DNA from: Candidatus Hydrogenedentota bacterium
Lineage (GTDB): Bacteria > Hydrogenedentota > Hydrogenedentia > Hydrogenedentales > CAITNO01
Assembly: GCA_903902895.1 (NCBI GenBank)
Contig: CAIUWO010000207.1
Span: 1-47,822 of the forward strand
Direction: 5' to 3'
DNA: 47,822 bases
Shown: piece after piece, positions 20,175-45,875 of the stretch
Position numbering within the stretch: the stretch's first letter is position 1
Layout of the letters: each line of letters starts with the position of its first letter
The notes under the pieces: generated by a model
Database searches by the model: none
Told to the model about the DNA's origin: nothing
Seen by the model: only the letters and a program-made list of their open reading frames with translations
Translations under genes and position numbers: made by a program

Positions 20175-20175
20175 C

Positions 20176-20181
20176 TATAAT
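20176..20181 (+). promoter_or_regulatory. -10 element of the DUF6788-type gene
   Basis: A perfect TATAAT lies 36 bp before ATG 20212, which would give a leader of about 24 nt containing the GGAGG site. No good -35 is present at 16-18 bp; the palindrome occupies that place. Confidence 0.55.
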
Positions 20182-20211
20182 GTCAAGAAGAAAATGGAGG
20201 CCCGGAAAGAA

Positions 20212-20511: not shown

Positions 20512-20525
20512 ACCGAGAAATCGGT
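20512..20525 (+). terminator. Small GAAA-loop hairpin after the DUF6788-type gene
   Basis: ACCGA-GAAA-TCGGT starts directly after the stop codon and is followed by ACTTTAAAAAT. The stem is only 5 bp and the T run is short, so termination would be weak. Confidence 0.3.
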
Positions 20526-20582
20526 ACTTTAAAAATATTAACAATATGGAGATAATATAAGGTTAGAAGTACAGGGTTTTCC

Positions 20583-20611
20583 TTGACACCGTGTGCAAAA
20601 TATGTTAAGAA
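20583..20611 (+). promoter_or_regulatory. Promoter of the giant surface protein gene
   Basis: TTGACA (20583-20588) is followed after 17 bp by TAAGAA (20606-20611) in AT-rich sequence, about 110 bp before the ATG at 20722. The -35 is perfect and the -10 weak. Confidence 0.5.
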
Positions 20612-20678
20612 ATATGGGTTAGGATCGCAGGAGTATTTTGGGTGCACTTTCAGGGTTAACTCTTGTGCGAAGGGTGAG

Positions 20679-20707
20679 AGTCTTTCCGCGAGGGGAGCCG
20701 TAAGACT
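20679..20707 (+). promoter_or_regulatory. Leader hairpin next to the ribosome-binding site of the giant gene
   Basis: AGTCTT (20679-20684) and AAGACT (20702-20707) can form a 6-bp stem with a GC-rich 17-nt loop, ending just before AAGGAGAGG and the ATG at 20722. It might modulate translation. It does not match a riboswitch family known to me. Confidence 0.35.
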
Positions 20708-20721
20708 AAGGAGAGGTAGTC

Positions 20722-29700: not shown

Positions 29701-32700
29701 GCGGCCGCACTTCGCTCTGTGCAGCCAGTTCCTTCTGTGTTTCTGGATTGTGCCGACTACCACATTACCGATGGTTCAGCCGCGATAGACAAAGCCGATC
29801 CGTCCAAGGCACCGCCAGAGGATATCGACGGAGACCCGCGCCCTGGCCCCGATGATGAGCTTGTGGACATCGGGGCCGATGAGGCCAATTCTTCATATGG
29901 CGGACTTCCCGAAACAGAAATCTGCAACCTGCCTGACAAAATGAGAACGCTGTCGTTCTACCTGCCTTATCGTGTCCTCGGCTCTTCGGCGGAGATCACC
30001 AGCGTTGTGCTGTGGTATCGGTATACGAACGCAGATGAAGTAACAGGACCATGGACGCCGTATCCAGGCCTACCGCATCCTCATGACCCCGCCGACCTCC
30101 GAATGCCATTTGACGCACTCGCGGTCGATGGCGAGGGCACATACGAGTTCTATTCAATCGCCACGGACGTGAATGGCAGAACGGAGCAAGACCTGCGGAC
30201 CGCGGACGCCAAGGTATGGGTAGTTCAAGAGTACCCGGACAACCGAATTTATGTCGACTGCGGTGCCAACAGCGGTGGCAAAGGAAAGAGCTGGGACGAT
30301 GCCATCGGCGGGCCTGACGGTCTACGCAAAGCCCTCGAAATTGCCAGCCAACTGCAGATTCCCGAAATATGGGCAGCGCAGGGCACGTATGAGACCAATG
30401 AGTACGCCGGCATTGCCCTTCAAAGCAATGTCGCGATCCATGGCGGATTCCTGGCTGGACAAACCGCGCTGTCTGACAGGGATCTGGCGGCGCATCCGTC
30501 CATCATTTCCGGCGGTGGTGACTGCGCCGTCGTCGTAAACGCGTACGGAGTCAAGAACGCCCGCTTGAACGGTTTCACGGTCACAGGGTGCACCGCATAC
30601 GCGGGCATCTACTGCAGCCTTGTCGCGGGGGATGTCGTCTTTGAAGACTGCACGCTGACAGGTAATGGCGGTAGAGGCATCGAACTTTACAACGACGGTT
30701 CTCCCACGATTGTAAGTTGCACCATAAGTGACAACGCCTTTGACGGCGTATTGTCGGGGTTTGGCTCGTATCCACACATTGTGGGCTGTCAAATAAGCGG
30801 GAACGGCGGGTGCGGGATCTGGGGGACTGGCGTTCCATTGGGCTCAGGGTGGAATCCCGGCGATGATGGCGGCGTGGAGATTGAAGACTGCGTGATTTGC
30901 AGGAATGGCCTTGACGGAGTAGTCGGCTCAAACCGGAGCGCCATAAGTGTAAGCGGTAGCTTCATTTCCGGAAATGGTTCAGAAGCACATTCCGCTCCGG
31001 ACGACCCGGATCTTCCACTTCCTCCCACGGGAAATCTGAACCTCTGGGACGCCGGCAACGTGGCGGTTACGAACTGCGTGATATCGCAAGGGTACGCCTA
31101 TGGCGCCTATCTGGGGTCGGGCACGGTCGCAAACTGCACGATTAGTGACAACGCAGGACCGGGAATTAACGCAATATACGGTCGAGGGTGCCCGGCGGAG
31201 GTCGTCAACTGCATCCTCGCGAGCAATGGAGGACCTGGTATTGTAACGGATGTCTATGGGGAAAATACCGAACCGGAGTCTTGCCTTTTCTATTCTAACA
31301 CCGGTTTCGACTATGACGATGGCATGCCGGAGGGACAATGCGTTGGCGCGATAAGCCTTACGGGTTTCCTGGGCAAGGAGGCTGGCAATGTCGACGGAGA
31401 TCCGTCTTTTGCCCCGCCCATCAGCGGCACATGGGCCCACATCTCGCGCCAAGGAGATGATCTCGTCCTGACAGCGGCCGATTCCGCGGCGTTTGCCAAC
31501 CAGAATCTTGCCGGCCATCGCGTCAAAGTAGACACTTCCCGCAAAGATTGGATACGCATAATCTCAAACAGTCCCAGTGCAGTGACAGTGCGCGCAAATG
31601 ACGTGCGCTTTGCCGTGCCAGTCGGTACCGGGTTTGAAACCGACGGATATCACCTGCAGAACGGATCCAATGCCATTGGCCGCGGTCACAAATCCGCGGC
31701 GTCGCCGCCCAAAGACATCGACGGCGATGACCGGTCTAAGGAAAGCGGTGTGGACATTGGCGCGGACGAAGCCCCCCCCAGCTGGCTGGCGCCACCGCAG
31801 ACCTACCTGGTCAACGTGCCGGCCGTTTCCGTAACGGGGCAAGTCTGCATGGAATACGTTGTCGAACCAGGCTCTGCGCCAGTGGTCTCACTTGACCTCT
31901 GGTACAGAAGCATTAGAGAGACGAACTGGCACCAAGGCGGCACATTTGACGTTCCCGTCGAACCCAATCCCAGCGACACTGTCTGCTTCAACGCCTTGAC
32001 GATTGCTGACGGGGCATATGAATTCTGCCTGGTTGCCCACGGTGAAGCCGTTACATCTGAATCGTTGGCTGAGGCCCGCACAGCCATCGCAAGGTCATTT
32101 CCAGACGGCCATATTTATGTGAACAATCAAGCCGCGGCGGGTTTGAGAACCGGCACCTCGTGGGATAACGCGTTCCTGACCGTCTCGGACGGCATTCTGG
32201 CCGCACGACTCAAGGGGGGGATATCAGAAGTGTCGGTGACCGGGGGGCCCTATTACGAGAAGATTTCGATTCCTTCGGGTGTGACAGTTCAGGGGGGGTA
32301 TGTTCCTGATGGCGCTGGGCAGACACGGAACATAACGCAGGACCCTAAACTTTACACAAAAATGTTCCCCTCTCAGTTGGGCGCGGTGTCGGTGACCATT
32401 CCCCAAAGCATGACACAGCTGCAAGTGCGGGATACTGTAGCGCCAACCGTCACCTTATCAGGAGCAGACCGTGATCACCAGGTGTCTGATGCAGGGTTGT
32501 CTGGATTTACCGTACATCCATCCGAATACTTTCTCTATGGAACAAACAACGCGCCGTCCGAATTAGCCATTGCCCTTAGAACAAATCATGCGGCGCCGTC
32601 GACCAGCATCTCCAACTGTGTGTTTGCCGGGTGCGCCTTCACGTTCGACCTGATGACGTTTCAGTTTGACCATACATATGGCATCCGTTGTACTGACGCC

Positions 32701-35700
32701 TCTCCCACGTTGGAGAACTGCGCGTTCAACCAATTCCAAACCGGCATAGAAGCGAGCGGATCCAGCGCACCGATCATGAATGAGTGCATTTGGGACGGAC
32801 GGTGCAATTATGGGCTGGGCGTTGGTGTCGAGGGAACTGGGCCCGTGTTAAACAACTGCATCGTGGAGTCCCGTGTGAGCGTTGGGGGCAGTTCCTTGAT
32901 TGGCATAAATGACTCCAACATTGGCACATGTATTTTGCGCGGTCAATCTGTTGGCACGATTGCAGATTGCATAGTCCGAGGGTGTGTGGAGGCAAGGGAT
33001 ACCGCATGTGCCAAAATAGCCAACTCAATACTGGCTGTGCGCATAAGCAGCAGCAACGACAACAACTTGATACAAAACTGCGCCATCCAGGGAAACGCAG
33101 GGGCGGGAATCACATGCTTGTCAGGTGCGTCCGCAACGTTTAAGAACTGCGTTATCGCCGGAAATGGGCTCTCAAACGAGGACAGTGCCATTCGGTGCTG
33201 GGGGTGTTCCCCTCTCTTTGTCAATTGCACCATTGCAGACAACGCGGGAACCGCTGTCGAAATTGGCGCGCCGGATTCCTACCACCCGGATGTCAGCCCG
33301 GAGTTTCAGAACTGCATCATCAGCGGGCATCATGGCAGCGGCAGCGCCGGCATTTCGTGCTACCGTAATTTCGATGTGAACAGCGCTACCGGTGGCGACC
33401 CGATTCTGAAAGACGGGTTGCCATTGCTTACGAACTGCCTGTTTCACGGAAACGACGGCGGCGATCTTCTCGTGCATGAGGGAGGTGAAGGGGGCGTGAC
33501 TCGGGTTTGCGGGGTTGACGGCATAAACGACACGACGGGATCTTCCTCGACAATATGGGGCGACCCGAAGTTCGTCCGGGGCCTGAGTGGAACCTGGGCC
33601 AGTATCAATCCGGTTTCCAGTGCGGAAACTGCACTGGAAGCGGCAGCGCCGTATGAGGAGGCCGGGGATTTGGCGGGCCGGTTCCTGGTTGCGAACAACA
33701 AGTATGCGCGTCAGATCAGGATTCTGCGCAGCCCCAGTAATCCGCCTCCAGATCATAATACCATCGTGATTCCAAATGAAAGCAACTTTGTTCTGGCCAT
33801 GGACGGCGAAAACGCCATCGCTATTTTTCAGGGAGTAAAACCGGGCGATTCCTTCCATGTTGTCGATTATCACCTGCAAAACAGTTCGATGGCCGTGGAC
33901 GGCGGCGATGTCGGCTCGGCGCCGGAGAGGGATGCGGAAGGAAATCCGCGGCCAAGCGGGGAAGGCGCGCACGTCTCCATCGGCGCATACGAACCCCCCG
34001 AGGAATACGTCGTCGGCACGCCGGGGCCATACACCCGGGTGACCGAACTGCAGGGAATGGTGGAAGGCATCGTCGCCGGGTTTAGCTTCAACGTGGGGTT
34101 TGTTGCGCTTTCAGCGGACACCAACCCCGTAACGCAGGTGAAGCTCTGGTACCAATTCAACGGTGGCCCGGCGACACTGTACGGAAGCTTCCTGCCAAGC
34201 GAAACCCCCATACCGTTCAATGCAGGCGATACGGGGCTCAATGCCACCGGAACGAAGGCCGGCATGTACACATTCTACACAACCGGCATCACGCAGGACG
34301 GCACGGTCGAAGATCCTCCTGTCTTCCCCGATGCAATGTGTGAAGTCGTCGCGCCGTGGGACGGTGTAACGCCCATTTGCGTGGCTTTGGACGCCGTCGA
34401 GGAGAACGATTGGCGCCAAAAGACCGGCAGCGACTGGGAACCCAATCACGCCTTCAAGAAGCTCAGTAATGCGATTGAGCGCGCCCGCATCTACAGAATA
34501 GGCGAAATTTGGATGAAGCAGGGCGACTATACAGAACAGCGAATGTTCAGGAGCGGGGATGTTGCCATCTACGGCGGATTCACCGGCACAGAGACTCCCG
34601 GCGACCGGAATGCCAGAAACACGCGCGATACCGCCGCGCATCCCACGACGATTGGAACGGACTTTGACTGGGTGGGCAAGGACTATTATGGCAACGACAC
34701 ACCGTTGTCATTATGGTGCTACCAAACCCACAACCTGCTCCTGGACGGAATCACCTTTAGCCGGGGTGTCGAATTCTCTGAATGCAACAGCAGCAACACA
34801 ATTCAGAACTGCATCATAAAGAACGTCTTAAGGGGCTCGGTCAGTATGAACGAGTCCTCGCCGACATTTTCCAATTGCACCATCACCAGCGATACCGGCA
34901 CCGTCTTCTTCCCCGGTGACAGCCCATGCACCATGACCGGGGCATACAGTGGCATAAGCGTGGGCGGAGGCGCGCCTACTTTCACGGACTGCCAAGTGGA
35001 TGGGGTGTTCTGGTGCGCCGTCCATATCATTGCCGGCGCAATTCCAACCTTTACCCGCTGCAGCATCTTGTCCCGGCAGGCGGACCCATCGGGCAACGCA
35101 GACTACATTACTAGGTCTGTATGGGAGCCTTTCCTAAAATCTGTGGTCAGTTGCGGCTGCGATGGGGCGCCGGTTTTCCAGTCATGCAGCATTGCTGGCT
35201 GCGCCGAGGCTGGGGTTTATGTGTATGTGAGGCATTGGCCTGATGATGAATGCCCGCCAACGCAGGGGATGGACAGCCTTGCGCCGAACTTTGATGATTG
35301 TGCGATCAGCGTCAGCGGCACAACACCGTGGAAGAGCCACCGCAGGAAGGAAGGGTATGGCGTCGTGTGCCAGGATGCGGCGACCACGCCCCAGTTCTCG
35401 CGTTGCCGGATTCAGGGGAACTATGTTGGCGTGTACGCCGACAATTCCCGGGCCGACTTCTCAAACTGCAATATAGCCGGCAATGGACGCATTTACACGG
35501 ATGGCGACTACTACCACCTCGAAGGTGCGGGCATACTGTGCGGCGGCAGTCCCGCTCCGGCGTTCACAAACTGCACGGTCAGCGACAATCCCAACGTCGC
35601 AGTCGCGGCCAGTGGTTTGGAGTCGCCTTCGCTCATCAACTGCATTATCACCGGAACGGAGGGCGACGAGGCGGTAAAGCACAGATGTTCCCCTCCGCCG

Positions 35701-36768
35701 ATACTGAAGAACTGCTTCTTCAATAACAGTTGCAATGACTACAGCGGGTACGAAGATGGCGTCTTCAAGGCCGCGCGCGGCGCCGCGGAACTTGCCGAAG
35801 TGCCAGGGATAACCGCTCCTGTCGACGGAGACCCGCATTTCAAGCCTTCCACAGAGGTCGGCTGGTGGGGCAACGTCCCAGCGTCTGTCCAACAGAATCC
35901 GTATAAAGCGCTCAGCATGGCGAAAGAGGGCGCCTTTACCCGGTTTACGGTGACCACCGGCACGCTGGGAATGGGCGTTAGGGCAGGCGACTATATAAGT
36001 GCCCTTTCCAATGACGGTGGACTTTATGCAAAGTCCGGGCTCATCGTCGCAAAGACGAACACCACCATTGATGTAATGGGCGACTTTACCGACAGGCAAC
36101 CGTCCAATCTGCACGTTGTCATCCCCGATTACCATATCGACAACGGTTCGCGCGCCCTGTGGCACGGTATGGTTGACGGCGCCCCAACGTACGACATTGA
36201 CGGGAATGACCGGCCGGGAAGTGATGCCTTTTTCGATATCGGCGCCGATGAAGGCGCGCCCGGATCGCGGCCGGACAATGTGTGCGTTCTTAACCTTCAG
36301 TGCCCCAACGGCGGGCAAATATCGCCGCAGGCCGGCACATCCTTCCATGAGGCGGGCAAGACGGTGTCACTGAGCGCTACCGATACCGCGGACCGTGGCT
36401 TTGTGCGTTGGGAAGAACTCGGCGCCGGCGGCCAGGTCATTGCCGAACATGACAAGAGAGAACTGCACGTGGAAATGAACGCCGACAGGACGTTCCGCGC
36501 AGTGTTTGGGGCCCGGATCACCATTACCGTTGAGAAGAGCGGCGTTGGAGCCACAGTTCCCCTCGCGGGCACGCACACCTTTCTCGAATTCACCCAGGCC
36601 ACCTTTACGGCCTCTCCCGTCGACGGCTCCCAATTCTCGCATTGGGAAGATTCGGACAGCGCGGTGCTGGGAGCTGACCCCGTGCTGACGTTTACCGTAA
36701 GCGCGCCCAGGACCGTGCGGGCGGTATTTGTTGAAACGGGCGCCGTATGCGCTCCGCCGCTGCCGTGA
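20722..36768 (+). CDS. Giant multidomain surface protein: LRR arrays, InlB-type repeats, PKD domains, four beta-helix modules and a nested clostripain protease
   Basis: The 5348-aa protein starts at ATG 20722 after an ideal AAGGAGAGG and has a Sec signal (about 1-37). In order, with rough residues: N-terminal region with a dockerin-like Asp-rich segment; LRR array 1 (490-800, internalin-like 'LTYLDLRDNQIIDITPLAAL'); InlB-B-type repeats (810-1130, 'FDHWTGDLADTANPASVTMD'); LRR 2 (1132-1370); repeat (1373-1445); LRR 3 (1453-1775); repeats (1777-1920); three PKD domains (1924-2182, 'WEWNFGDGT'). Four beta-helix modules follow (2183-3057, 3175-3687, 3795-4427, 4552-5180), each ending in an anchor-Q-like 'DIDGxxRP..DIGADE' and separated by Ig-like domains. 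Two C-terminal repeats end it. A C11 protease domain (2454-2783) sits inside beta-helix module 1, with His2563 (NHGGGW) and Cys2617 (DACLMGM). No LPXTG, PEP-CTERM or T9SS tail is recognised. Probably an exported adhesin with protease activity; rhs follows after 77 bp. Confidence 0.9.
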   Translation: MRKGVTIVRANMVLSVCLLCAALALTGGGVCAVLSVNAKPMGEGKPVAPVIPAESSAGESGMGQVMVQWWRDTAAAHGTPTPETVRAEALATPPVDNAASRVPGTVVTADTPAVLPVHLPASAVSVEQLGLTFPGLAINARTRTQLDALSNVTVGITTFAVDQGIKNAVGLSEKSPSAQKDSGEGEPDLSTFDLVADYDTFLALVSPGSDPHTADINAYGLDENGAASFGTGDGIPDRAQILILQQVLKTPGIEFSGGASHTTAVARWQAIWASFPAEGSSIEGVTAEQYASVRRVIVSVCMFGDTASVQLGLTLGGLIGWVPIDEAAQRSLFTPMPWPFSAQGNFNGTATGAAYCNSAKWTIAQEHAAAATSPVAPTFDEIATAYGAMLGADFVNAQSTATQFHTLNIQLCGQLVCPTLGRLDLAEGIGTNLTAVPDTSWLFDHWELTPEGGSTSIVTTQALTVPPCYGNIAVRAVAKPDATARIDTVFRDRHLEQAVRVAVNKLTGDVFWADVEGLTGLDARGLGIAGTDGLNYLTSLTYLDLRDNQIIDITPLAALTGLGMLMLGHNQVVDVAPLAGLSGLVILDLGWGMDSLSIWDRWAAQGEANQITSISALSSLNNLNILDLCGNNISSLDAVSAMTSLQVLLADGNPVRDYDSVGALDSLYLLCVQNTGMTDTILASLLLDNGTPKLPGLGGIGLSANPALTTLAPLVDYANLTGLLCGDNAELANITDLSGLSSLGVVILGNTKVTELASLNALRTQDLGGALILRNNPHLFDNGGAPCTDVELIEAMGNTVDCDFACGTQKLLTTTVSPTLNAGDVAPFVGSRPYAANAVVQVQAMQSNPAYCFSHWTGPVADPASRNTAVYMTGDRSVSAVFIPYGDGMLTMLAPKTYEVNAQGARVPGTERDVPGVVTPAPGQWNCRLGETRHLRAEAKPGWGFLCWCDADYTVVDSTHDYDLVMTGDRTVRAIFMPAKWTLYMYGQNGAGTITPPLGLMYCAAGQQVPLHAEADPDYCFTGWSGGPSGQSGFQYNAADTMIIMDADYTLWTTFTACDQLPLTVGVEGFGDTNPAVGTHYYSTGTTVSLTAVPYPGWMFDHWTGDLADTANPASVTMDTAKTVTAVFSIDFADGNLLSVIRQAIGKPSGPIYVGDLTGHTELDTTGCQITSLQGLQYWNDLAVLTVNNATLDSETLDLTPLEALNNLREVSFQNVRFASVAPLACLGTVEKLVLHDCGLTDIAPLATMTGLKELDLAQNRIGDLVPLQGLILLEALDLSRNAAPAPATGPAFSSEAPLAGLTPLVGLTQLRNLSLAYNRLEEIAPLAGNTGLGSGDIVDLSGNPLSPASLCGAVQTMKDNDVTVFHEGVCTHIFTLQITGNGSVGMAPGQYSYPAGQTVECLAQADSGWVFDRWEGGTVACPRAKAQTFTMDQAVTVTAVFIAVPQEEIPANEITIADPNLKLAIFAAIGRHSAQATDPLYLKEVVCLQYLDAYNSRITSLEGIQNCRALQEVFIYENQITDVSPLTALGELTHVELGGNPLASAAPLTQICGLQELHIDNCGLVSLDFLPGLDSLQLLDVSGNPVGNSEMEHIEALTSLHALGIGQTGITTLEPLSGLSLLDTVYAPENAITDLSPLANLTGLQALVASSCMITDLTPLAGLTQLGILLIDQNPNLASLAGLEGMTSLNCLYASSCALDDIGIESLGDANLTMLQWLALGNNELVDIQPLADNAGIGTGDFVDLEGNPLNDQSKCTHIPALQARGVDVHPSNACGYKLMVEVQGQGFVTQNPTGSPLRPGTQVTLTATPPANPAKWYFDHWEGDLTGTVNPATVSMDADKTVKAVFKPYDHTLTVEVEGDGTPTPGVGTHYYSSGDVASFSVAPAAGYMLDHWEGDLEGAGHSPQLTMNHDCSVKAVFVQGTLRAAFKALPRVGLPPLTVAFADQSSWRDHPATAWEWNFGDGTDIDSAASPTHVYQSPGIYSVSLKVTSNAGSDTLVREHYIHAQSLPTASFTAAPFSGVAPLDVTFTDASLPGNTPPILRREWKFGDGGTSTAASPTHAYQSSGTYDVSLKVTTAAGSNTLTKTSYIYVQSRPTASFVASPSGGLAPLTVHFTDTSVSQNASPIVRRHWDFGDGATSTEQSPQHIYAVPGVYTASLTVENLFGPNTCTRTIHAVETLARLYVVPPGTARDGLAPGWADAFESIGDAAEQLGLYPDAEIWIAQGVYNESVAIHECGFNEGHAWVYGGFSGTETALEDRDPAAHPTILDGSGKEPFYFDNRGAILFLNGEMAVVDGLTVTGSSDCGVATGDGVNATISHCTLAGNAGYGVFLGAPIYDDGGRVELSNCVVSGNGGGVTGIRMQAIIKNTLITGNARCGIEINTPPGFCDKSNNLKPQSTTGSRLWQGPTNGFASNDWARKEHSPQELDAALSAKDGAINDPTRLLTKSGQAEWTVLVYMDGDNDLEEYAIADFLEMSEIGSGDEFNIVVLFDRSPDYATAYDNWTGARRGMVRSGDTPGLAWGTAVGGDVNMGNKQTLTDFCQWGMSSYPAARYALILWNHGGGWSKSLTLQARPFKEICYDYTSGSVLSVADVKDAICAATFTKPFSLIGFDACLMGMAEVAYEMSQTQASVMVASEDLEPSNGWPYADVFAQLKVSPAMGPAQLGAIIVDSYYNSYGRSQTMSAVDLREMGTVVEGITALGCCIPRDESSNPRNCAAKATELMTALDKAVIRERHGDDWDGSHGLSIYFPNDAFPVPEYEGIAFDNESSWYEFLESFAGLPTDSWVRQARDGVKTYGPEADYADLYAFCDAVAGLAQQRDSHLKVVNCTIANQPVGIFVADKPFCADVNYAFEAVNTIFANHGECGVWEARADAITQLDNCLFFQNAIDYRAKGTTELTGPGAIDAYFGWQSFNAGGDPKFLLPVINAQLALAGEQPENDPNRTKFTATGLTAGALVGKILRLPPLEGQSGESLIVANTATEIEVLGPVAAALRSVQPVPSVFLDCADYHITDGSAAIDKADPSKAPPEDIDGDPRPGPDDELVDIGADEANSSYGGLPETEICNLPDKMRTLSFYLPYRVLGSSAEITSVVLWYRYTNADEVTGPWTPYPGLPHPHDPADLRMPFDALAVDGEGTYEFYSIATDVNGRTEQDLRTADAKVWVVQEYPDNRIYVDCGANSGGKGKSWDDAIGGPDGLRKALEIASQLQIPEIWAAQGTYETNEYAGIALQSNVAIHGGFLAGQTALSDRDLAAHPSIISGGGDCAVVVNAYGVKNARLNGFTVTGCTAYAGIYCSLVAGDVVFEDCTLTGNGGRGIELYNDGSPTIVSCTISDNAFDGVLSGFGSYPHIVGCQISGNGGCGIWGTGVPLGSGWNPGDDGGVEIEDCVICRNGLDGVVGSNRSAISVSGSFISGNGSEAHSAPDDPDLPLPPTGNLNLWDAGNVAVTNCVISQGYAYGAYLGSGTVANCTISDNAGPGINAIYGRGCPAEVVNCILASNGGPGIVTDVYGENTEPESCLFYSNTGFDYDDGMPEGQCVGAISLTGFLGKEAGNVDGDPSFAPPISGTWAHISRQGDDLVLTAADSAAFANQNLAGHRVKVDTSRKDWIRIISNSPSAVTVRANDVRFAVPVGTGFETDGYHLQNGSNAIGRGHKSAASPPKDIDGDDRSKESGVDIGADEAPPSWLAPPQTYLVNVPAVSVTGQVCMEYVVEPGSAPVVSLDLWYRSIRETNWHQGGTFDVPVEPNPSDTVCFNALTIADGAYEFCLVAHGEAVTSESLAEARTAIARSFPDGHIYVNNQAAAGLRTGTSWDNAFLTVSDGILAARLKGGISEVSVTGGPYYEKISIPSGVTVQGGYVPDGAGQTRNITQDPKLYTKMFPSQLGAVSVTIPQSMTQLQVRDTVAPTVTLSGADRDHQVSDAGLSGFTVHPSEYFLYGTNNAPSELAIALRTNHAAPSTSISNCVFAGCAFTFDLMTFQFDHTYGIRCTDASPTLENCAFNQFQTGIEASGSSAPIMNECIWDGRCNYGLGVGVEGTGPVLNNCIVESRVSVGGSSLIGINDSNIGTCILRGQSVGTIADCIVRGCVEARDTACAKIANSILAVRISSSNDNNLIQNCAIQGNAGAGITCLSGASATFKNCVIAGNGLSNEDSAIRCWGCSPLFVNCTIADNAGTAVEIGAPDSYHPDVSPEFQNCIISGHHGSGSAGISCYRNFDVNSATGGDPILKDGLPLLTNCLFHGNDGGDLLVHEGGEGGVTRVCGVDGINDTTGSSSTIWGDPKFVRGLSGTWASINPVSSAETALEAAAPYEEAGDLAGRFLVANNKYARQIRILRSPSNPPPDHNTIVIPNESNFVLAMDGENAIAIFQGVKPGDSFHVVDYHLQNSSMAVDGGDVGSAPERDAEGNPRPSGEGAHVSIGAYEPPEEYVVGTPGPYTRVTELQGMVEGIVAGFSFNVGFVALSADTNPVTQVKLWYQFNGGPATLYGSFLPSETPIPFNAGDTGLNATGTKAGMYTFYTTGITQDGTVEDPPVFPDAMCEVVAPWDGVTPICVALDAVEENDWRQKTGSDWEPNHAFKKLSNAIERARIYRIGEIWMKQGDYTEQRMFRSGDVAIYGGFTGTETPGDRNARNTRDTAAHPTTIGTDFDWVGKDYYGNDTPLSLWCYQTHNLLLDGITFSRGVEFSECNSSNTIQNCIIKNVLRGSVSMNESSPTFSNCTITSDTGTVFFPGDSPCTMTGAYSGISVGGGAPTFTDCQVDGVFWCAVHIIAGAIPTFTRCSILSRQADPSGNADYITRSVWEPFLKSVVSCGCDGAPVFQSCSIAGCAEAGVYVYVRHWPDDECPPTQGMDSLAPNFDDCAISVSGTTPWKSHRRKEGYGVVCQDAATTPQFSRCRIQGNYVGVYADNSRADFSNCNIAGNGRIYTDGDYYHLEGAGILCGGSPAPAFTNCTVSDNPNVAVAASGLESPSLINCIITGTEGDEAVKHRCSPPPILKNCFFNNSCNDYSGYEDGVFKAARGAAELAEVPGITAPVDGDPHFKPSTEVGWWGNVPASVQQNPYKALSMAKEGAFTRFTVTTGTLGMGVRAGDYISALSNDGGLYAKSGLIVAKTNTTIDVMGDFTDRQPSNLHVVIPDYHIDNGSRALWHGMVDGAPTYDIDGNDRPGSDAFFDIGADEGAPGSRPDNVCVLNLQCPNGGQISPQAGTSFHEAGKTVSLSATDTADRGFVRWEELGAGGQVIAEHDKRELHVEMNADRTFRAVFGARITITVEKSGVGATVPLAGTHTFLEFTQATFTASPVDGSQFSHWEDSDSAVLGADPVLTFTVSAPRTVRAVFVETGAVCAPPLP
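27270..36260 (+). repeat. Four tandem beta-helix/anchor-Q modules within the giant gene
   Basis: Each module begins with an 'IYV....G.SW..AF' strand and an 'EIW.AQG.Y' segment. It runs through many short right-handed beta-helix rungs ('NCTI..N...GI') and ends in 'YH..NGS.AID.G....DIDG..RP...DIGADE'. Approximate limits are 27270-29890, 30245-31780, 32105-34000 and 34375-36260. An Ig-like domain lies after each of the first three. The copies are divergent in DNA sequence, so the duplication is old. Confidence 0.8.
28081..29070 (+). other. Clostripain-family (C11) protease domain nested in beta-helix module 1
   Basis: The segment from EWTVLVYMDGDNDLEEYA through YALILWNHGGGW and LIGFDACLMGMAEVAYE to HGLSIYFP is a near-complete C11 caspase-fold peptidase, with the catalytic His and Cys both present. 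The rung NTLITGNARCGIEI before it and LKVVNCTIANQPVGIFV after it belong to one beta-helix. A linker of about 55 residues precedes it and resembles the propeptide region of free C11 enzymes. Confidence 0.85.
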
Positions 36769-36845
36769 CAACCATGAACACCATGAGCACCCTGAACCTC
36801 CATGTCACCCAAGATGACTTGCGCAAAAGAAGGGAACTGCCCGAT

Positions 36846-39800
36846 ATGACGCCGACACAATGCATTTGTCGCGGCATGGTCGCAGCACTGGCTGGCTTTT
36901 CCGTGCTTCTGTGGGCAGTTGCGGCGCATGCCCAGAACTGTTACCCAGTCTACGAAGTTACCACGGTGACCGATCCCCCTGTGGCCCTCGGTGGTGTCGG
37001 TGGTGACGCTGAATACTGGGATGGCAACCCTCAAGACTGTCCCCGAGACTATGGTGTGTTTTATGACGAGCTGGATGAATTCCAAACCAACATTGTGGCC
37101 CGGGCGCCCCTTGGAGCCAAGTTGATTCAGGGCGTAAGTGGTGGGGACCTTGACCCCGCCGGACAATTCGGTCCCCACTACGCCTTCTGGTGGCACTCTC
37201 CGGAGTACTATGGGCAATGGGAGTTTGACAACTATGACTTCTCCTACTGGGATACCATATTAGAGAGGTGGAGATCCATGGGGGGGTGGCGTTACAACGA
37301 AGATTATCCACTTGCCCCCACCGTGATTTCACTACCCCAAGGTGAATATGAAACGTACCTGGATGACCGCAGCGGCTTCGCTTTTCAAGATTGCGAAATC
37401 ATTATTCCCAAGAGCCCCAAAGGCGCGTTTCCGGCGGGACAATGGACGGTCAAGCACCTCCAGTACAATCTCCAAGTCATAAACAAGTGGAAGCGCATAG
37501 AGGCCGACAACCAGCTCACCGTCGCCAATGAGCCCAGTGACAAAGCCTACCAGTACAGATATCGAATTGCGCCGCACCCGTTTCCCGATTCGGGCGCCTG
37601 GAAAGAGAAGGATGTCTCCGGGGATCCTGCACTTATTGACAAAATTGGCGATGGATTCGGCGTTCAACTGGAGCCGGTACAGCCACACGACCGGGGTGAC
37701 CCGGTGGAGGAAGGGTGCTTCTTCCAGAATGGGCATGTATTCGACTATTGGCGAGGCGACGACCACCTGCGTTACGCCCAGCCACGTTTCCTGTGGGTGC
37801 CGGACATCACCTTCCCTCCCGCCCCCGCCGTGCCGGATGAAACAAAGTCGGTGACCGCGGTATGGAAACACGATGTTGAACTTGCGATCCACTTTGTGGA
37901 AGTGGGGGTTTACAGGGACCCAAGCATATACCCTGAAATCGTTTCGAGCAGCAGCACCGTGGCCATTTCGAGCGAGTCAGACTCTGTGGACGCACCCATA
38001 ACCAGCAGCGAGGACTTCACAGTTCGCCTGACCCACGGCTACGAGTTCACAATGAACCCGGAACCGAAAGCGCACTATGTGTTCTTTATGGCCGGGTATG
38101 CGGAGCGCAGTCTCGGCATAAATGAATGCATCACGGCCTTCCTGCCCGGTGGCACCCAGTCTGAGGATGTCGTCTGGCTCAGGGAGGACCCGCTTACCAC
38201 CAGCTTTTCCGTTCCGGAACCCGCTGGCCCCGGCGCGTACTACAGCGGCGGTGTGATAACCGTGTTCTTCGTCGATGAACTGCTTGCGCAGCACCTGCGT
38301 GAGGTGAAAGCGGCCATCGCGAAGAAACTTGAGTGCCTCGGAATCACCTCCTGGGTGGGCGACCCGGTTTATCCGCACTCAGGGGAGTTCTACCAGGAAG
38401 AGGAGGACCTGCGCGTCAAGAGCCCCGGCATGGACTTTGTCTGGGCTAGGAAGTACTCCTCGCGAAACGGATACGACACGGTGCAAGGAAGCCGGTGGGA
38501 CTTCAACTACAACATCTACGTCGAACGGTTGGGTGACGAACACCTCCTGTACCATGACGGAAATGGCAGAATTGACATTTTTGCGCTATCGAAGCAGGAC
38601 GGCGAATGGCATGCCGGCGGACGCACGGACAGGTTTGACTACGGGGGGGGCGGTTCAGCGGCGGTTCTGCATATGCAGGACGGCACGACACAGTATTTTA
38701 GTCCGCTCGCTGTTGATTCAGATGAGCCTGGCGGAAAGCTCACATGCATTCGGGATCGAAACGGCAACACAATGAGCTTCTACTATGATTCTGAATGGCA
38801 CCTCACCTCTGTGTCCGATACGCTGGGCCGACGATACTGGATTGAGTATGATCACGGCACAGCACTCCGCATCCGTGGCGTCCATGAGGAATATGGGGAT
38901 TCACCCCGGTCTGTCCGCTACTGGTACGACGGTGACGGAAACCTCACATCAGCCATCGGGCTTGGCAGCGGGACGACGACCTATGGCTATGACAACGCGA
39001 ACAATCTGACGACGATCACCGATCCGCGCCGGAACACGTACCTGACCAATCACTATGGTTCGCCTCTTTTGTCCCGGGCGCGCCGTTCCCAGGTGGCCTC
39101 CCAGGAATGGGGCAACCCGGGGGATACCATAAGATTCTCGTATGATCTTTTTGATTACCTGCCCGATGGTTCCGGTGAACTGCTGTCCGGCCTCAGCCGA
39201 AAAACCACCGTGACAGACCGCAATGGAAACACGATGGATTTGAGCTTCGGCGGTGCCTTCCTGACGAGGAAAGACGAGACGGAGAAGGAAGGGGGGCATA
39301 TTGTCACGGCGTATTCCTACAATCACACGGGAATGCCTGTCGCCATCCAGTATCCCCGGGGAAACCGGACCCTGTACGAGTACAGCCTGAGCAATCAAAT
39401 AAATCCCGCCAGGGTCACCAGGGGTGTCCTAAACGGGACGGGGGGTATTTGCCAACAGTTCACCTATCTTCCCGGGCTGTCCGGATGCGGTTGCGGGACC
39501 AGTTTCATCAAGGCGTACACCGACGGCCGCGGCAAGGTGACAACAAATGACTACGACGCAAATGGGAACCTGACTTTTGTCCATCGGCCGGCAGGCGCAG
39601 GCGTGGACGACGAAGCCTACACCTACAACGGCAGGGGGCAGGTGGAAACGCACACATGGCCGGGGGGCCGTGTGGACGAATTTCAGTACACCGGCGGCTA
39701 CGTGACCACGGTCATTCAGGACAGGGATGGTGTCCACGCGACCGTTTCCCTCGAGCGGGACGCCCGCGGCAATGTGACTGCAATGACGGACGCGGAGCAG

Positions 39801-42800
39801 AATATCCACAGCTTTGAATACGACGCCCACGACCGGGTGACGCGCATTGAGTCGCCCGGGGCGGCCGTCCATCCCAACGTGGTATCCGTTGTGTACGACG
39901 AAAACGGCAACGCCACCAAGGTGCGTTTTGACAACACGGGCACGGGGGAGTGGCAGGAGGCGTCGTATGAGTACGAAATTCTGAACTATCTGAAGAGGAG
40001 CACGCTGTCCGGCAGTTCCGGCACCCCGGATTCCCACGCATTACTGGAGACCACGTACGAGTATGACGGGAACCGAAATGTGACAGACATCATCCCGGGT
40101 GGGGGCGGGACCCCGATCTCCTTCGAATACAATGCGCGAAACATGGTCACGGATATACACCGGGGAGACATCACGATTTCGTATGAATACGACGGCAATG
40201 GCAACGTGACCGCGGTGACTTATGGCGGAGGCCGCCATGAGTACAGCTATGACAGCCATGATCAGCTGGTAAGCGCGAAGGATCCCCTGGACAACCTGAC
40301 TTCGCTGGCCTATGACGCGAACGGAAACCTTGCCGGCGTGGACCGGCGTGATGGCGGGGGCAAGAGACTTTTTGCCGCCAGCTACACCTATGACGACGTG
40401 AACCGCCTTATTGAACGGCTGGTCGGCAATGCCAAGACAGAGCTAAAGTACAACGGGGCGTCTGAACTCACGGACCTGATCAATCCAAAGGGTCACAAGG
40501 CCTCCTTCGTTCATGACACGATGGGCCGCCTCGAATCGGTGTCAAACGATGCGGGCGAGTCGGCGTCTTACGAGTATGACAAGAACGGCAACGTGCTGTA
40601 CGCCACCCGGAAGGGATTGGACGGGGTGCCGTACACGACGGGCTTCACCTATGACGCGCTGAACCGCCTCGCCACGGCGGTGGACAGCGCCAACCACCAA
40701 ACCACCTACGGCTATGACGCGCGGTCCAATCTGGCCTCTGTGACGGGGCCCGACGGGCGGACGTCCACGTTTGGCTATGACGGCCTGAACCGGCTCGTGG
40801 AGGCTGTTCATCAAATTGATGCCACCCATCAGGCGACCTTAAGCCAAACCTGGGACGCCAAGTCGCGTTTGGCCAGCCGCACCGACGGCAACAGCCAGAC
40901 GACGCGGTACGATTACGATGTTCTGGACCGCATCAGCGCGGTCACCTATGCGGACAACACGGCCCGCAGCTATGAATACTATTCCGGTGCCGAAGGCGGC
41001 AGCCTGAAAGAGGTCATTGCGCCCAGTGGTGCCAAGGCCAGTTTTGAATACGACGCGCTCAACCGGATGGCGAAGCGGACAGTGACGAAGGGCGCCTTGA
41101 GCGAAACGGCGAACTTTGCCTACGACGGGATGTCGCGGCTCCTGTCCGCCACCGTGCCGGGTTCGCGGGTCAGTCTGGAATATGACGCCCTGGGCAATCT
41201 CACCGCGGAGGCGCTCAACGGCGAAGCCGTACGATACACCTATGACCTTGCGGGTAACATGGAGACGCAGACCTATCCGCATGGCCGGTCCCTGTCCTTT
41301 GCCTATGATGCGGCGGAACGGCTGACGGGTGTCTTGGAAAGCGGCAGCCCGCTGGTGACCTATGGCTTCGAGAAGCCCCATCGCCTCGCCTCCAAACTGC
41401 TGGCGAACGGCGTCACGACCGCGTACACCTACGACAGCGCCCTGAATGTTGAAAGTGTCACCGCGGCCAAGAGCGGCGCAGACCTCGACAAATGGGGATT
41501 TGCCTGGGACAGCGTGCGCAATAAGACCGGTCGGAACGACCTGCTGGCAAATCTGTCGTCCACCTACGGGTACGACGGCCTGCAGCGCCTGACTGACTCG
41601 ACCAGCATCCCCGGCTCAGGCACCATTCTTTACGCGCTCGACGCCGCGGGCAACCGGACGGGCGTCACGAACGGTCCTGACGCGGGCGCCTATGTTCTGG
41701 GCGCCATGCACGAGTATGCATCGGCGCCCGTCGGCGGGTTGACCTATGACGCAAACGGCAACCTGCTGACGATCAATGCTGGCCAGCCGAACGCCCAGGA
41801 ATTCGCCTATGACGCGCAGGATCAACTGGTCCGGCACGTCGCGCACCATGCGGGCGGCTGGCAGACCATGGCCGGTGACTGGACCACCGCCGACGACAGT
41901 TCGGCCAGCGGGTCCGGGCGGATTGTGAAGGCCCGCGAGGCGGGGTTTGACACACTGCGCTTCACCTACACGGCCGATTCCGTCTCCACCGACGCCGAAT
42001 CCTACGGTTTCGCCGCCGTGCGCGCCGGACAGAACGCTCAGGGCTGCGTGGTTTACGTCGGCGTCCGGATTCACGGCGCGAATATCGAACTCATCCTCTT
42101 CGGTCCGGCCGGTGAAACGGGCCTCGCCACGGCAAGCGTCACGACCGAGGCAGGCACGGAGTATGATCTCGCGCTGAACATAGACGCAACCACCGGCGCG
42201 GTCACGCTCCAGCGCGCCGCTCACGGCCAAGCGCTGGCTACAATCGCCTCGGCGTCCACCGGCGCAACGGGACTCAACCCCGACATGCTCATTCTGGGCG
42301 CCGGCTCGGCGACCAGCTACAGCTTTGCAAACGTCGCAACATATATGGGAACCACCGCCCAGGGTGAACTGCCCGACCGGCCCGTCACCACGACTTTCCA
42401 ATACGACCCCTTCGGCCGCAAAGTCCGGAAGATCGTGGAGGGCGGCGTCCACCCGCCCCAGACTACGCGCTACGCCTACAGCGGCGGACGGGTGCTCGAG
42501 GAACAGGACAACACGGGCACGCCGAAGGCGAGCTACGTCTACGGCCGGTACATCGACGAACCCATTCAGATGAAACGCGGCGACAGCACCGTCTACTACC
42601 ACACCGACGACCTCTACAACGTCACCGCCCTCACGAATGCCGCCGGAGAAGTGGTCGAGCGCTACCGCTACGATGATTTCGGGACACCGCATATTTATGG
42701 CCCGACCGGCGCTTCGATCCCGGAAAGCACCGTCGGCAACCCCTACCTGTTCACCGGCCGGGCCTACGACACAGACCTTGGGCTGTACGACTACCGCACC

Positions 42801-43691
42801 CGACACCTCCACCCCGGATTGGGCCGCTTTACCACGCGGGACCAGATAGACCTCTGGGGTGACCCCGTCAACATGGGTAATCCGTATAGCTATGTCGGCA
42901 ACGCACCGGGGAAGTATGTGGATCCATACGGGCAAACTAGCCTATGGGATTCGCTTTCAAATATGTTCGTACCGTTTTGGAATTTCGTAGATCCTAATCT
43001 TCAGAAGGAGCCCTTGCCAGTTACCGACACTGGCCCGAGCGGAGAGCAGCAGCCAGACGAACTTACAGAAGCAGAGTTGGCCGAGCGATCATCGAGAGTT
43101 GTGCCTGCCGTCCGTGAAGGGTTTAACGAAATATTCGATTGGGCTGCCATGGGGCCAAGCGTTGTCTTTCCGGGGGGGACTGCAGCAGTAAGTGGAATTG
43201 TCAATGTATCAAGGGGTCGCAACGGGTCCGCCGCTCTGGATGTCGCGGTCATTGGGAGTGTTGCGGGCGAAAGACTTGTCGGAACCTTCCTTAATAAGGC
43301 GGGTGATCTTGAGAGAGTTATGGGGATTCCTAGCTCGAAGCGCCTCAAGAATAGCCTTATTAAAGCAGGGGAACAATTCTTCGAAGGGTGTGAAGCGCAC
43401 CATATAGTACCGAAAGAACTGAAGACAATCCCCGAAGCAGAAAAGTTGAGGGACATATTGCAGAAGTTCCGTATTGGCCTAGACGATGCTGAAAATGGTA
43501 TCTTCCTGCGTGGTCCAAAACTGAAGGATACAACGGACCCGTTGTTGCTGGCCATACCAACACATAGAGACATACACAAACCGGAAAGCCTGCAAGCTAT
43601 GCTGGCAATCATGCAGGATGCCACAACCCGGCAGGAAGCGGTTGATCAACTAGCAGTACTCCGTTCTCTGATAAGAGGCGGAAACCTGTAG
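36846..43691 (+). CDS. Rhs/YD-repeat protein with Sec signal and C-terminal AHH nuclease toxin domain
   Basis: ATG 36846 is preferred over 36747: it follows AAGGGA and opens a Sec signal (MTPTQCICRGMVAALAGFSV, then WAVAAHA). The 2281-aa product has an N-terminal region with an InlB-like piece (VFDYWRGDD, SVTAVW). A DUF6531-like start of the Rhs shell follows near residue 500 (VGDPVYPHSGEFYQ). Dozens of YD repeats ('YEYDGNGNVT') run to about 2020. A beta-sandwich insert interrupts the shell at about 1665-1845. The Rhs core ends with 'LGRFTTRDQIDLWGDPVNMG' and DPYG (Asp2026). The last 250 residues are a variable toxin region ending in an HNH/EndoVII-type AHH nuclease: CEAHHIVP (AHH at 2184-2186), 'GLDDAENGIFL' and HRDIH (2240-2244). 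The toxin-encoding part is visibly AT-richer than the core, as expected for exchanged Rhs tips. The immunity gene starts 2 bp after the stop. Confidence 0.92.
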   Translation: MTPTQCICRGMVAALAGFSVLLWAVAAHAQNCYPVYEVTTVTDPPVALGGVGGDAEYWDGNPQDCPRDYGVFYDELDEFQTNIVARAPLGAKLIQGVSGGDLDPAGQFGPHYAFWWHSPEYYGQWEFDNYDFSYWDTILERWRSMGGWRYNEDYPLAPTVISLPQGEYETYLDDRSGFAFQDCEIIIPKSPKGAFPAGQWTVKHLQYNLQVINKWKRIEADNQLTVANEPSDKAYQYRYRIAPHPFPDSGAWKEKDVSGDPALIDKIGDGFGVQLEPVQPHDRGDPVEEGCFFQNGHVFDYWRGDDHLRYAQPRFLWVPDITFPPAPAVPDETKSVTAVWKHDVELAIHFVEVGVYRDPSIYPEIVSSSSTVAISSESDSVDAPITSSEDFTVRLTHGYEFTMNPEPKAHYVFFMAGYAERSLGINECITAFLPGGTQSEDVVWLREDPLTTSFSVPEPAGPGAYYSGGVITVFFVDELLAQHLREVKAAIAKKLECLGITSWVGDPVYPHSGEFYQEEEDLRVKSPGMDFVWARKYSSRNGYDTVQGSRWDFNYNIYVERLGDEHLLYHDGNGRIDIFALSKQDGEWHAGGRTDRFDYGGGGSAAVLHMQDGTTQYFSPLAVDSDEPGGKLTCIRDRNGNTMSFYYDSEWHLTSVSDTLGRRYWIEYDHGTALRIRGVHEEYGDSPRSVRYWYDGDGNLTSAIGLGSGTTTYGYDNANNLTTITDPRRNTYLTNHYGSPLLSRARRSQVASQEWGNPGDTIRFSYDLFDYLPDGSGELLSGLSRKTTVTDRNGNTMDLSFGGAFLTRKDETEKEGGHIVTAYSYNHTGMPVAIQYPRGNRTLYEYSLSNQINPARVTRGVLNGTGGICQQFTYLPGLSGCGCGTSFIKAYTDGRGKVTTNDYDANGNLTFVHRPAGAGVDDEAYTYNGRGQVETHTWPGGRVDEFQYTGGYVTTVIQDRDGVHATVSLERDARGNVTAMTDAEQNIHSFEYDAHDRVTRIESPGAAVHPNVVSVVYDENGNATKVRFDNTGTGEWQEASYEYEILNYLKRSTLSGSSGTPDSHALLETTYEYDGNRNVTDIIPGGGGTPISFEYNARNMVTDIHRGDITISYEYDGNGNVTAVTYGGGRHEYSYDSHDQLVSAKDPLDNLTSLAYDANGNLAGVDRRDGGGKRLFAASYTYDDVNRLIERLVGNAKTELKYNGASELTDLINPKGHKASFVHDTMGRLESVSNDAGESASYEYDKNGNVLYATRKGLDGVPYTTGFTYDALNRLATAVDSANHQTTYGYDARSNLASVTGPDGRTSTFGYDGLNRLVEAVHQIDATHQATLSQTWDAKSRLASRTDGNSQTTRYDYDVLDRISAVTYADNTARSYEYYSGAEGGSLKEVIAPSGAKASFEYDALNRMAKRTVTKGALSETANFAYDGMSRLLSATVPGSRVSLEYDALGNLTAEALNGEAVRYTYDLAGNMETQTYPHGRSLSFAYDAAERLTGVLESGSPLVTYGFEKPHRLASKLLANGVTTAYTYDSALNVESVTAAKSGADLDKWGFAWDSVRNKTGRNDLLANLSSTYGYDGLQRLTDSTSIPGSGTILYALDAAGNRTGVTNGPDAGAYVLGAMHEYASAPVGGLTYDANGNLLTINAGQPNAQEFAYDAQDQLVRHVAHHAGGWQTMAGDWTTADDSSASGSGRIVKAREAGFDTLRFTYTADSVSTDAESYGFAAVRAGQNAQGCVVYVGVRIHGANIELILFGPAGETGLATASVTTEAGTEYDLALNIDATTGAVTLQRAAHGQALATIASASTGATGLNPDMLILGAGSATSYSFANVATYMGTTAQGELPDRPVTTTFQYDPFGRKVRKIVEGGVHPPQTTRYAYSGGRVLEEQDNTGTPKASYVYGRYIDEPIQMKRGDSTVYYHTDDLYNVTALTNAAGEVVERYRYDDFGTPHIYGPTGASIPESTVGNPYLFTGRAYDTDLGLYDYRTRHLHPGLGRFTTRDQIDLWGDPVNMGNPYSYVGNAPGKYVDPYGQTSLWDSLSNMFVPFWNFVDPNLQKEPLPVTDTGPSGEQQPDELTEAELAERSSRVVPAVREGFNEIFDWAAMGPSVVFPGGTAAVSGIVNVSRGRNGSAALDVAVIGSVAGERLVGTFLNKAGDLERVMGIPSSKRLKNSLIKAGEQFFEGCEAHHIVPKELKTIPEAEKLRDILQKFRIGLDDAENGIFLRGPKLKDTTDPLLLAIPTHRDIHKPESLQAMLAIMQDATTRQEAVDQLAVLRSLIRGGNL
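42184..42590 (+). repeat. Parent copy of a duplicated rhs segment
   Basis: This roughly 407-bp part of the rhs gene (end of the beta-sandwich insert plus the following YD repeats) is repeated at 44321-44727 with scattered substitutions and no net length change, at a constant offset of 2137 bp. Confidence 0.9.
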
Positions 43692-43693
43692 GC

Positions 43694-44248
43694 ATGAGCA
43701 CAAGAAGAGTATCGCAAATGAATACTTATGAAATGTTCAGCCTCGACGGCTTCCGATTGCTCGCTTTGGTGGACGAAAAGGATATAAGCAAACTTTGGCA
43801 TGACGGTACGAGTCGCAAGGGAGATTGGACACCGGTTCCAGTCACGTTCGCGCCTACAAGGTATGGCCACAGAACCGATTGGGACATACATCCTTGTCTT
43901 GGCCCCATGTTCTTCGTTACGCGCCGTGGAGTTGATATATTGAGCCCGGTAATTGAACCGTACGGAGAGTTTCTCCCACTCATATCAACCGCCGGAGAGT
44001 TCTATGCGTATAACACCACCTACACAATAGACGCGCTGGACCATGAGGCGTCTAACTTCACAAGGTTTCCAAGTTCCGGTAGGATCAGCGGCTGGAATCA
44101 ACTGGCTTTCAAGGAGGACATGATTGCGGACGTGCCTCTCTTCTTAGTCCCGGAGTTTCCAAGAGGGCATCTCTTTCTCACAGAGCATTTTGTCGAGTGC
44201 TGTGTGAGGCATGATCTACGCGGCGTGAAGTTCAAACAGGTCGTGTGA
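43694..44248 (+). CDS. Probable immunity protein for the Rhs AHH nuclease
   Basis: The 184-aa protein starts at ATG 43694, two bases after the rhs stop, which implies translational coupling; ATG 43718 is an alternative. It has no signal peptide and is cytoplasmic, as needed to neutralise a nuclease. The layout looks like DUF1629/Imm43-type immunity proteins: 'TRRGVDILSPVIEPYGEFLPL' followed by a 'FYAYNTTYTIDALDHEASNF' strand pair and a C-terminal 'FVECCVRHDLRGVKFKQV'. That family match is from memory and not searched. Position directly after a polymorphic toxin tip is the main support. The base composition is AT-richer than the rhs core and matches the toxin region, so toxin and immunity probably arrived together. 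Confidence 0.78.
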   Translation: MSTRRVSQMNTYEMFSLDGFRLLALVDEKDISKLWHDGTSRKGDWTPVPVTFAPTRYGHRTDWDIHPCLGPMFFVTRRGVDILSPVIEPYGEFLPLISTAGEFYAYNTTYTIDALDHEASNFTRFPSSGRISGWNQLAFKEDMIADVPLFLVPEFPRGHLFLTEHFVECCVRHDLRGVKFKQVV

Positions 44249-44270
44249 ACGTGGTCGGGGGAATTGAAGA

Positions 44271-44295
44271 AATTAAGGGGACACCTTACTTAATT
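44271..44295. repeat. REP-like palindromic element
   Basis: AATTAAG and CTTAATT form perfect 7-bp arms around GGGACACCTTA. The motif (AAGGGGACACCTTACTTAATT) is reminiscent of short elements associated with REP-type tyrosine transposases, recalled from memory. It lies 23 bp after the immunity gene and 25 bp before the duplicated rhs fragment. Confidence 0.5.
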
Positions 44296-44311
44296 ATGGC
44301 AGCGTAGCATC

Positions 44312-44727
44312 ACTGAACACACGCAGCCACCGGTGCGGTCACGCTGCAGCGCGCCGCGCACGGCCAAGCCCTGGCTACAATCGCCTCGGCATCAACCGGC
44401 GCAACGGGACTCAGCCCAGACATGCTCATTCTGGGCGCAGGCACGGCGACCAGCTACAGCTTCACAAACGTCGCAACGTTTGCGGGATCCACCGCCCAGG
44501 GTGAACTGCCCGACCGGCCCGTCACCACTACCCTCCAATACGATCCCTTCGGCCGCAAAGTCCGGAAAATCGTGGAGGACGGTGTCCACCCGCCCCAAAC
44601 CACGCGCTACGCCTACAGCGGCTGGCAGGTGGTGGAGGAGCAGGACAACACGGGCGGGATTCTGGCCAGCTACGTCTATGGTAGATACATCGACGAACCC
44701 ATTCAGATGAAGCGCGACGGTGGCACC
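44312..44727 (+). pseudogene. Orphan rhs fragment duplicated from the upstream rhs core
   Basis: From 44321 to 44727 the DNA closely matches 42184-42590 of the rhs gene. The frame reads TGAVTLQRAAHGQALATIAS through YVYGRYIDEPIQMKR without any frameshift. A TGA lies just upstream at 44314 and there is no start codon before the homology begins, so it is not a gene in its own right. Homology stops about 110 codons before the DPYG junction, after which the frame continues into unrelated sequence to 45078. Track ORFs 44333-44710, 44392-44784 and 44422-45078 derive from this fragment. Orphan rhs pieces next to Rhs loci can serve as recombination partners for tip exchange; here it may be a remnant of an earlier tip or a partial duplication. 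Confidence 0.88.
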
Positions 44728-44858
44728 GCTTTGCGAATGCGCCGCATGGCACCAGCCAAAGCGTCGTCGTTGCCGCCGCACCAAGGTGGGGCTCCGAACT
44801 CGGGAGTCACTTCACCCAATCAGCACGGCACGACATTACGGTCAGCGCGGAATGCAGA

Positions 44859-45545
44859 TCATTGCTTGGGCGCCGCAGGCGGCTCGGCGGGGCTTTTCGG
44901 TGCTGGGCTTTGTGGTGCGGGGGGTGGCGGTACGGGGCTTTGTGGGCCGGTGGGTGGCGGGGCGGTCGGCCGCAGCTTCACGCCGGTAGCGGGTCGGGGC
45001 AGTTCCGTTTTCGGCGCGTCCCGCGGGCCCGCGTTGGCGGCGGGGCGTTCACCGGAAGAGAAGTTGTCCAGTGCGTAGATGTACAAAAACGTTTGCGCAC
45101 GCCGCTGATCGTTCATCTCCTTGGTGACTTCTTCAAACGCCGTCTTTTTCGCCTGACCGAGCTTCTGTTCAGCATCGATGGCCTGCTGGAGGAGTTTGGC
45201 AGATTCGGGGGAGGCAGTGCCCGAGCTCAGGGAGCCTTTGAGCTTTCCAGCCGCCGCTTTGACTTCCTCGCCGGGTTTCCGCATCAGTTCACGATACTTG
45301 CCGGAGGCTTCAACGATGGACTCGCGGTCGACGGGGTCAACCCCAATGCCGTCAAAGACGCGCGCAAGGTCCTCGGGTGCAGGCTGCGAAGTGCGCCTGG
45401 CCATGGGGTTGGGATAGCTGGGCGCGCGATTAAAGTGGAATTCCTTCATTTGGGATGCAGGATTGCCTGGCTCGGCTGAGCTTGCGGAAAACGAAATGGT
45501 CATGATTGCTGCAATGGAAACAGGCACGAGAACGGTGTTTTTCAT
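44859..45545 (-). CDS. Small secreted protein with helical core and Pro/Ala-rich tail
   Basis: ATG 45545 (MKNTVLVPVSIAAIMTISFS) is preferred over the track start at 45587: it has GGGAGGAAAG ten bases upstream and opens a Sec signal ending near SSAEP. The 228-aa product has a helical central domain (about 55-150, with 'EDLARVFDGIGVDPVDRESI' and 'AEQKLGQAKKTAFEEVTKEM'). It somewhat resembles Spy/LTXXQ-type periplasmic helical proteins, but this is weak. The last 60 residues are Pro/Ala-rich with degenerate 'PQSP.P' units. The 3' end lies 131 bp from the orphan rhs fragment on the opposite strand. The function is unknown; it is probably periplasmic. Confidence 0.7.
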   Translation of the reverse strand: MKNTVLVPVSIAAIMTISFSASSAEPGNPASQMKEFHFNRAPSYPNPMARRTSQPAPEDLARVFDGIGVDPVDRESIVEASGKYRELMRKPGEEVKAAAGKLKGSLSSGTASPESAKLLQQAIDAEQKLGQAKKTAFEEVTKEMNDQRRAQTFLYIYALDNFSSGERPAANAGPRDAPKTELPRPATGVKLRPTAPPPTGPQSPVPPPPAPQSPAPKSPAEPPAAPKQ

Positions 45546-45875
45546 GGAAATCTTTCCTCCCTGCGCCAGCATCTTGGCACGCTTCATTCTCTTCGGTGAT
45601 GCATAAGATAAAAGCCGTTCATATTGTAGATTACGGCATCAGAGAATTCAATTGTCCTTTTGTCGGTGAGGTGGACCATGTGCCATCCCTTTTCTGCCTC
45701 GTGAATCCCGTTTGTTTCTTCCTACCCATTTTGTTAACCTTTCCTGTGGTTTCCGGCACGCCAAGACCGGCATTCTGTTAACAAAAGCCTGTCACGCTGT
45801 TAATCAAACGTAGATTGCTTTCCATAACCCTCATAAATAGGGCATTAAATGAAAATAGTCAAGGTTCCGGTTTGA
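45546..45875. other. Intergenic region with a 10-bp inverted repeat at the right edge of the accessory block
   Basis: This 330-bp gap separates the minus-strand secreted protein from DUF58 and must contain both promoters. It is AT-rich. TTTTGTTAAC (45728-45737) and GTTAACAAAA (45776-45785) are perfect 10-bp inverted arms 38 bp apart. Possible roles are an operator pair or an element end. The track ORF 45506-45781 has no protein-like features. Confidence 0.5.

Follow-up and report, generated by a model that had tools for sequence, protein, structure and literature searches.

The locus examined here raises the question of why a short piece of rhs core, open in frame and lacking a start codon, lies behind an intact rhs gene and its immunity gene. 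The window, which is the whole stretch of DNA analyzed (47,822 nucleotides), is one entire contig (C207) from a metagenome-assembled genome of 7.6 Mb, which comprises 1056 contigs. Its relevant features are collected in Table 1. Pfam and NCBIfam searches showed that the main rhs gene encodes, in order, DUF6531, RHS/YD repeats, the Rhs-associated core (Rhs_assc_core) closing in DPYG and an AHH nuclease tip of the HNH/EndoVII type. The Imm11 gene lies directly 3′ of it, and the GC content is about 50% in the Imm11 region versus about 65% in the rhs core. RHS repeats, the Rhs-associated core, the AHH domain and the neighboring Imm11 gene make up the full set of features by which the family is recognized, and the main gene is predicted on this basis to encode an Rhs polymorphic toxin with an AHH tip and Imm11. 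A gene for a protein of 5348 aa (20722-36768) directly 5′ of rhs overlaps the rhs start. It contains leucine-rich and PKD-like stretches, and one segment resembles a clostripain-type peptidase by eye.

Table 1. Coordinates of the features of the rhs locus within the window.
Feature	Position	Strand	Basis or remark
26.3-kb insertion holding the rhs locus and the fragment	19574..45860		flanking MoxR and DUF58 genes adjacent in G001, G002 and G003
Main rhs gene, 2314 aa	36747..43691	+	ORF; Pfam PF05593, PF20148, PF14412; NCBIfam TIGR01643, TIGR03696
rhs core segment repeated downstream	42183..42590	+	aa about 1813-1948 of the rhs protein
Immunity gene, Imm11 family	43694..44248	+	Pfam PF07791, E = 8.8e-8; adjoins the AHH tip
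Solo AATTAAGGGGACACCTTACTTAATT palindrome	44271..44302		kind flanking a Y1_Tnp/RAYT transposase gene elsewhere in the host genome
Tipless in-frame orphan fragment of rhs core	44313..44728, certain 44320 to 44727	+	blastn, repeat search, alignment
Truncated REPIN, two inverted REP arms	44711..44790		alignment of copies

The 5348-aa gene and the rhs locus are contained in a segment that is absent from three relatives. Since the flanking MoxR and DUF58 genes are adjacent in all three, this segment is most simply taken as an insertion in the present lineage. It sits exactly between the MoxR stop and the DUF58 start. ATGCC is found at both of its ends, a possible 5-bp duplication that is partly accounted for by the start codon. 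The interval from the REPIN to the DUF58 gene contains a minus-strand gene (44859-45587) whose product is proline-rich with a possible signal peptide; it gave no Pfam or NCBIfam match and has no clear relative.

When the region was compared with the whole assembly by blastn, positions 44313-44728 matched rhs 42174-42591 at 87% (E = 1.7e-145), and a repeat search returned 300 nt at 91% with a spacing of 2137. On alignment, 44320-44727 paired without a gap with rhs 42183-42590 at an offset of 2137 bp and with 51 differences in 408 bp. This part comprises 136 codons with no stop and no internal indel; carrying the match on to CTGAAC at 44313 requires a 2-bp gap. The repeat of about 407 bp described in the initial annotation, in frame, without a start codon and offset by 2137 bp, was thus confirmed. 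Its further description as beginning mid-domain and stopping well short of DPYG was equally borne out: the fragment starts inside a non-YD insert of the core, continues in the core and ends about 110 aa before DPYG. It begins about 65-70 bases past the Imm11 stop codon. The 5′ edge has no start codon and the fragment no export region of its own, only aa 1813-1948 of 2314 being represented. A 218-aa ORF can be read mechanically from an internal ATG in frame at 44422; it crosses the REPIN and continues on the strand opposite the next gene. The fragment carries neither a C-terminal tip nor an immunity gene, and the DNA to its right holds no tip remnant, consisting of the REPIN and then the end of the unrelated antisense gene. 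No donor rhs gene was found elsewhere in the genome, the resident rhs gene being the sole match in the whole assembly. The number of contigs, together with 6.7% contamination, might raise the suspicion of an assembly artefact. Nevertheless, the two copies are about 13% divergent and each has its own unique flanks on one contig, so that the probability of an assembly duplication is close to nil.

A partial, same-strand copy of the upstream rhs core located 3′ of the AHH tip and Imm11 is the arrangement by which a displaced orphan is recognized. The C-terminal displacement model and displaced ('dissociated', 'orphan') rhs core fragments were described for Enterobacteriaceae (Jackson et al. 2009, PMC2935791). 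As in those bacteria, the fragment is a partial direct repeat of the core 3′ of an intact rhs gene and a GC-poor tip region, and lacks a start codon. In contrast to them, it abuts a REPIN on the right and its host belongs to a distant, uncultured lineage. Moreover, displaced cores in the literature mostly match the resident core almost perfectly (PMC2935791), whereas the identity here is only 87%, which counts against a reading as displacement. Two E. coli strains in the same study have a downstream core fragment without a tip (PMC2935791). Since the present fragment has no tip and such tipless cases are on record, it was classified as a displacement relic rather than as an orphan toxin cassette.

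Two further systems show a comparable layout. In Salmonella LT2, an arm of 522 bp with 95% identity between rhs-main and rhs-CT-orphan permits fusion of the orphan tip to the main gene (Koskiniemi et al. 2014, PMC3967940). The shared core segment (522 bp there, about 408 here) with a tip and immunity gene in between is common to both loci, as is the absence of initiation signals. The LT2 orphan keeps its toxin and immunity gene, and recombination there gains a tip, whereas the fragment here is tipless. The Rhs loci of Snodgrassella alvi consist of a full rhs gene, an immunity gene and then truncated rhs pieces (Steele et al. 2017, PMC5727410). The order is the same as in the window, although S. 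alvi has long arrays with tips and only a single tipless piece is present here.

The count of synonymous and nonsynonymous differences proposed in the initial annotation was carried out on the 408 bp. The 51 substitutions fell 14/10/27 on the three codon positions, with dS of 0.32, dN of 0.083 and dN/dS of 0.26. All-neutral divergence was rejected (23 or more synonymous codon changes, P = 0.0001). The divergence is coding-like, and most of the differences date from a time when the sequence was still under coding constraint. The longest identical run, 40 bp, is of chance length (permutation P = 0.18), so no conversion tract between the fragment and rhs is evident, and no stretch comes near 100%. 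The last quarter of the fragment is less similar (79% vs 90%, P = 0.003), as would be the case for a mosaic or a less constrained part.

These values bear on the earlier proposal that the preserved frame points to a recent origin or to conversion by the parent gene. An open frame and a constant offset are consistent with a recent copy or with similarity maintained by conversion. Nevertheless, the number of differences, the dS and dN/dS values and the missing conversion tract indicate that the fragment is neither recent nor homogenized, and this origin is extremely improbable. The frame is better explained if the sequence diverged under purifying selection and was orphaned only afterwards. The most telling site is YSGWQVVEEQD in the fragment, where the resident gene has YSGGRVLEEQD. 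The fragment version recurs unchanged in Acanthopleuribacter pedis (L045), and two other relatives have a close match to it (WQVVEE in L046 and L052). Because WQVVEEQD is common to other bacteria and missing from the resident gene, the fragment descends from, or preserves, a functional rhs allele distinct from the adjacent gene.

The same data bear on a rival origin, in which a part of the resident rhs gene was simply duplicated locally, without any link to tip exchange, and then drifted. Such a duplication would require fewer steps, and the copies share orientation and locus, with no other partner in the assembly. An equal-rate model of duplication, with the fragment drifting without a stop and the gene under selection, gave P = 0.006 to 0.03, a test that is only moderately strong. 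In addition to the low dN/dS and the open frame, the WQVVEEQD site fits other bacteria and not random decay. Local duplication is thus regarded as unlikely, also in view of the relatives described below, in which cassette arrays are the normal source of such repeats.

The initial annotation had further suggested a search for the same fragment in relatives, which did not recover it: in 100 genomes, significant DNA matches did not exceed 62 bp, and the same genus gave none. A contig-level search for the fragment gave two distant matches only. Genomes of the host genus and family gave no match to it, though some contain more distant rhs genes. The locus itself was not found in any other genome searched.

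The layout, as opposed to the DNA, recurs in the order. One contig (G054:C304, L049) carries three consecutive core-tip-immunity units, after which comes a fourth core. The four core copies are 87-93% identical and about 2 kb apart, with three different tips between them, and each tip is followed by a small gene in the immunity position, one of which is a Barstar relative. One tip-immunity pair in this array resembles ribonuclease/Barstar. On G030:C15, a module with a WHH tip and a SUKH immunity gene precedes a core fragment that is in frame, has no tip and shows 97% identity over 487 bp. Tipless core pieces behind a tip and an immunity-position gene were also found at G030:C1, G054:C89 and G042:C16, bringing such fragments in related genomes of the order to at least four. 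The piece at G042:C16 and the fragment in the window represent almost the same portion of the core. G035:C83 has a probable further tipless fragment, whose intervening genes gave no family identification. Rhs arrays are probably under-counted in these relatives, since several of their rhs contigs terminate within the repeated core. The architecture in related genomes and the three published systems (PMC2935791, PMC3967940, PMC5727410) support the early suggestion of a leftover from an older tip exchange.

The two edges of the fragment were analyzed separately. The palindrome to its left has 15 copies in the host genome at up to 2 mismatches and 0 in five relatives. At C631:22134 and 22858 an inverted pair of it brackets a Y1_Tnp gene with PF01797 and an NPVRAG motif. 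An inverted pair around a Y1_Tnp gene with NPxRxG, together with scattered copies, corresponds to the definition of a RAYT-associated REP (PMC2817692). Among six genomes tested the family occurs in this one alone, with one transposase unit (G000:C631:22134-22882). At the right edge, the left arm of the REPIN is cut at CACCG, the exact end point of the rhs homology, and the outer part of that arm is missing. The right arm has 20 copies in the host genome, and 39, 29 and 18 in G001, G002 and G007. The truncated REPIN at the end of the rhs homology suggests a deletion by microhomology between rhs core and REPIN.

With a solo RAYT-type palindrome about 10-17 bp to the left and a REPIN at the right end, the rhs piece could be considered cargo of a RAYT/REP-type mobile unit. 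However, the two flanking repeats are from different families, no transposase is encoded between them, and the REPIN is incomplete where it meets the rhs piece. Tipless ends at two other sites, both in G030, were tested for repeats and found in single-copy DNA. Insertion as cargo is therefore highly improbable, and the REPIN at the fragment end is, as far as tested, a local accident. It is likewise very doubtful that REP/RAYT elements trim or move rhs cassettes, with the REPIN at the core end as a preferred breakpoint for removing displaced tips. The palindrome on the left and the right end inside a truncated REPIN constitute one new local detail.

Taken with the position behind tip and immunity gene, these data make it probable that a displaced (orphan) rhs-CT/immunity cassette left the fragment behind as its core arm, and that its 3′ core, tip and immunity gene have been lost. 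We infer a displacement event, a lost tip and a deletion at this locus. In this history, recombination within the shared 3′ core would have placed an incoming cassette of core arm, AHH tip and Imm11 in an rhs gene, so that the previous core arm, with its tip and immunity gene, came to lie further downstream (C-terminal displacement). The displaced 3′ core, tip and immunity gene would have been lost in a subsequent deletion, which probably joined the rhs core to the left arm of a REPIN at their short CACCG match. As nothing is left of the lost tip or immunity gene at the fragment, the displacement step cannot be proven at the locus itself, and with no close relative carrying the locus the event cannot be polarized. 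The remnant would be relic DNA, untranslated or incidentally translated, and at most a short homology arm. Lacking both start and tip, it is expected to have no present function beyond that of a short arm for incoming cassettes; the sole outcome of recombination with the main rhs gene would be loss of the AHH tip and Imm11.

The fragment is thus a genuine but ordinary relic, probably the scar of a known tip-swapping process, and leaves the view of the system unchanged. C-terminal displacement of rhs tips, known in Enterobacteriaceae and bee-gut bacteria, also marks the rhs loci of this distant uncultured lineage, several genomes of which carry core-tip-immunity arrays.
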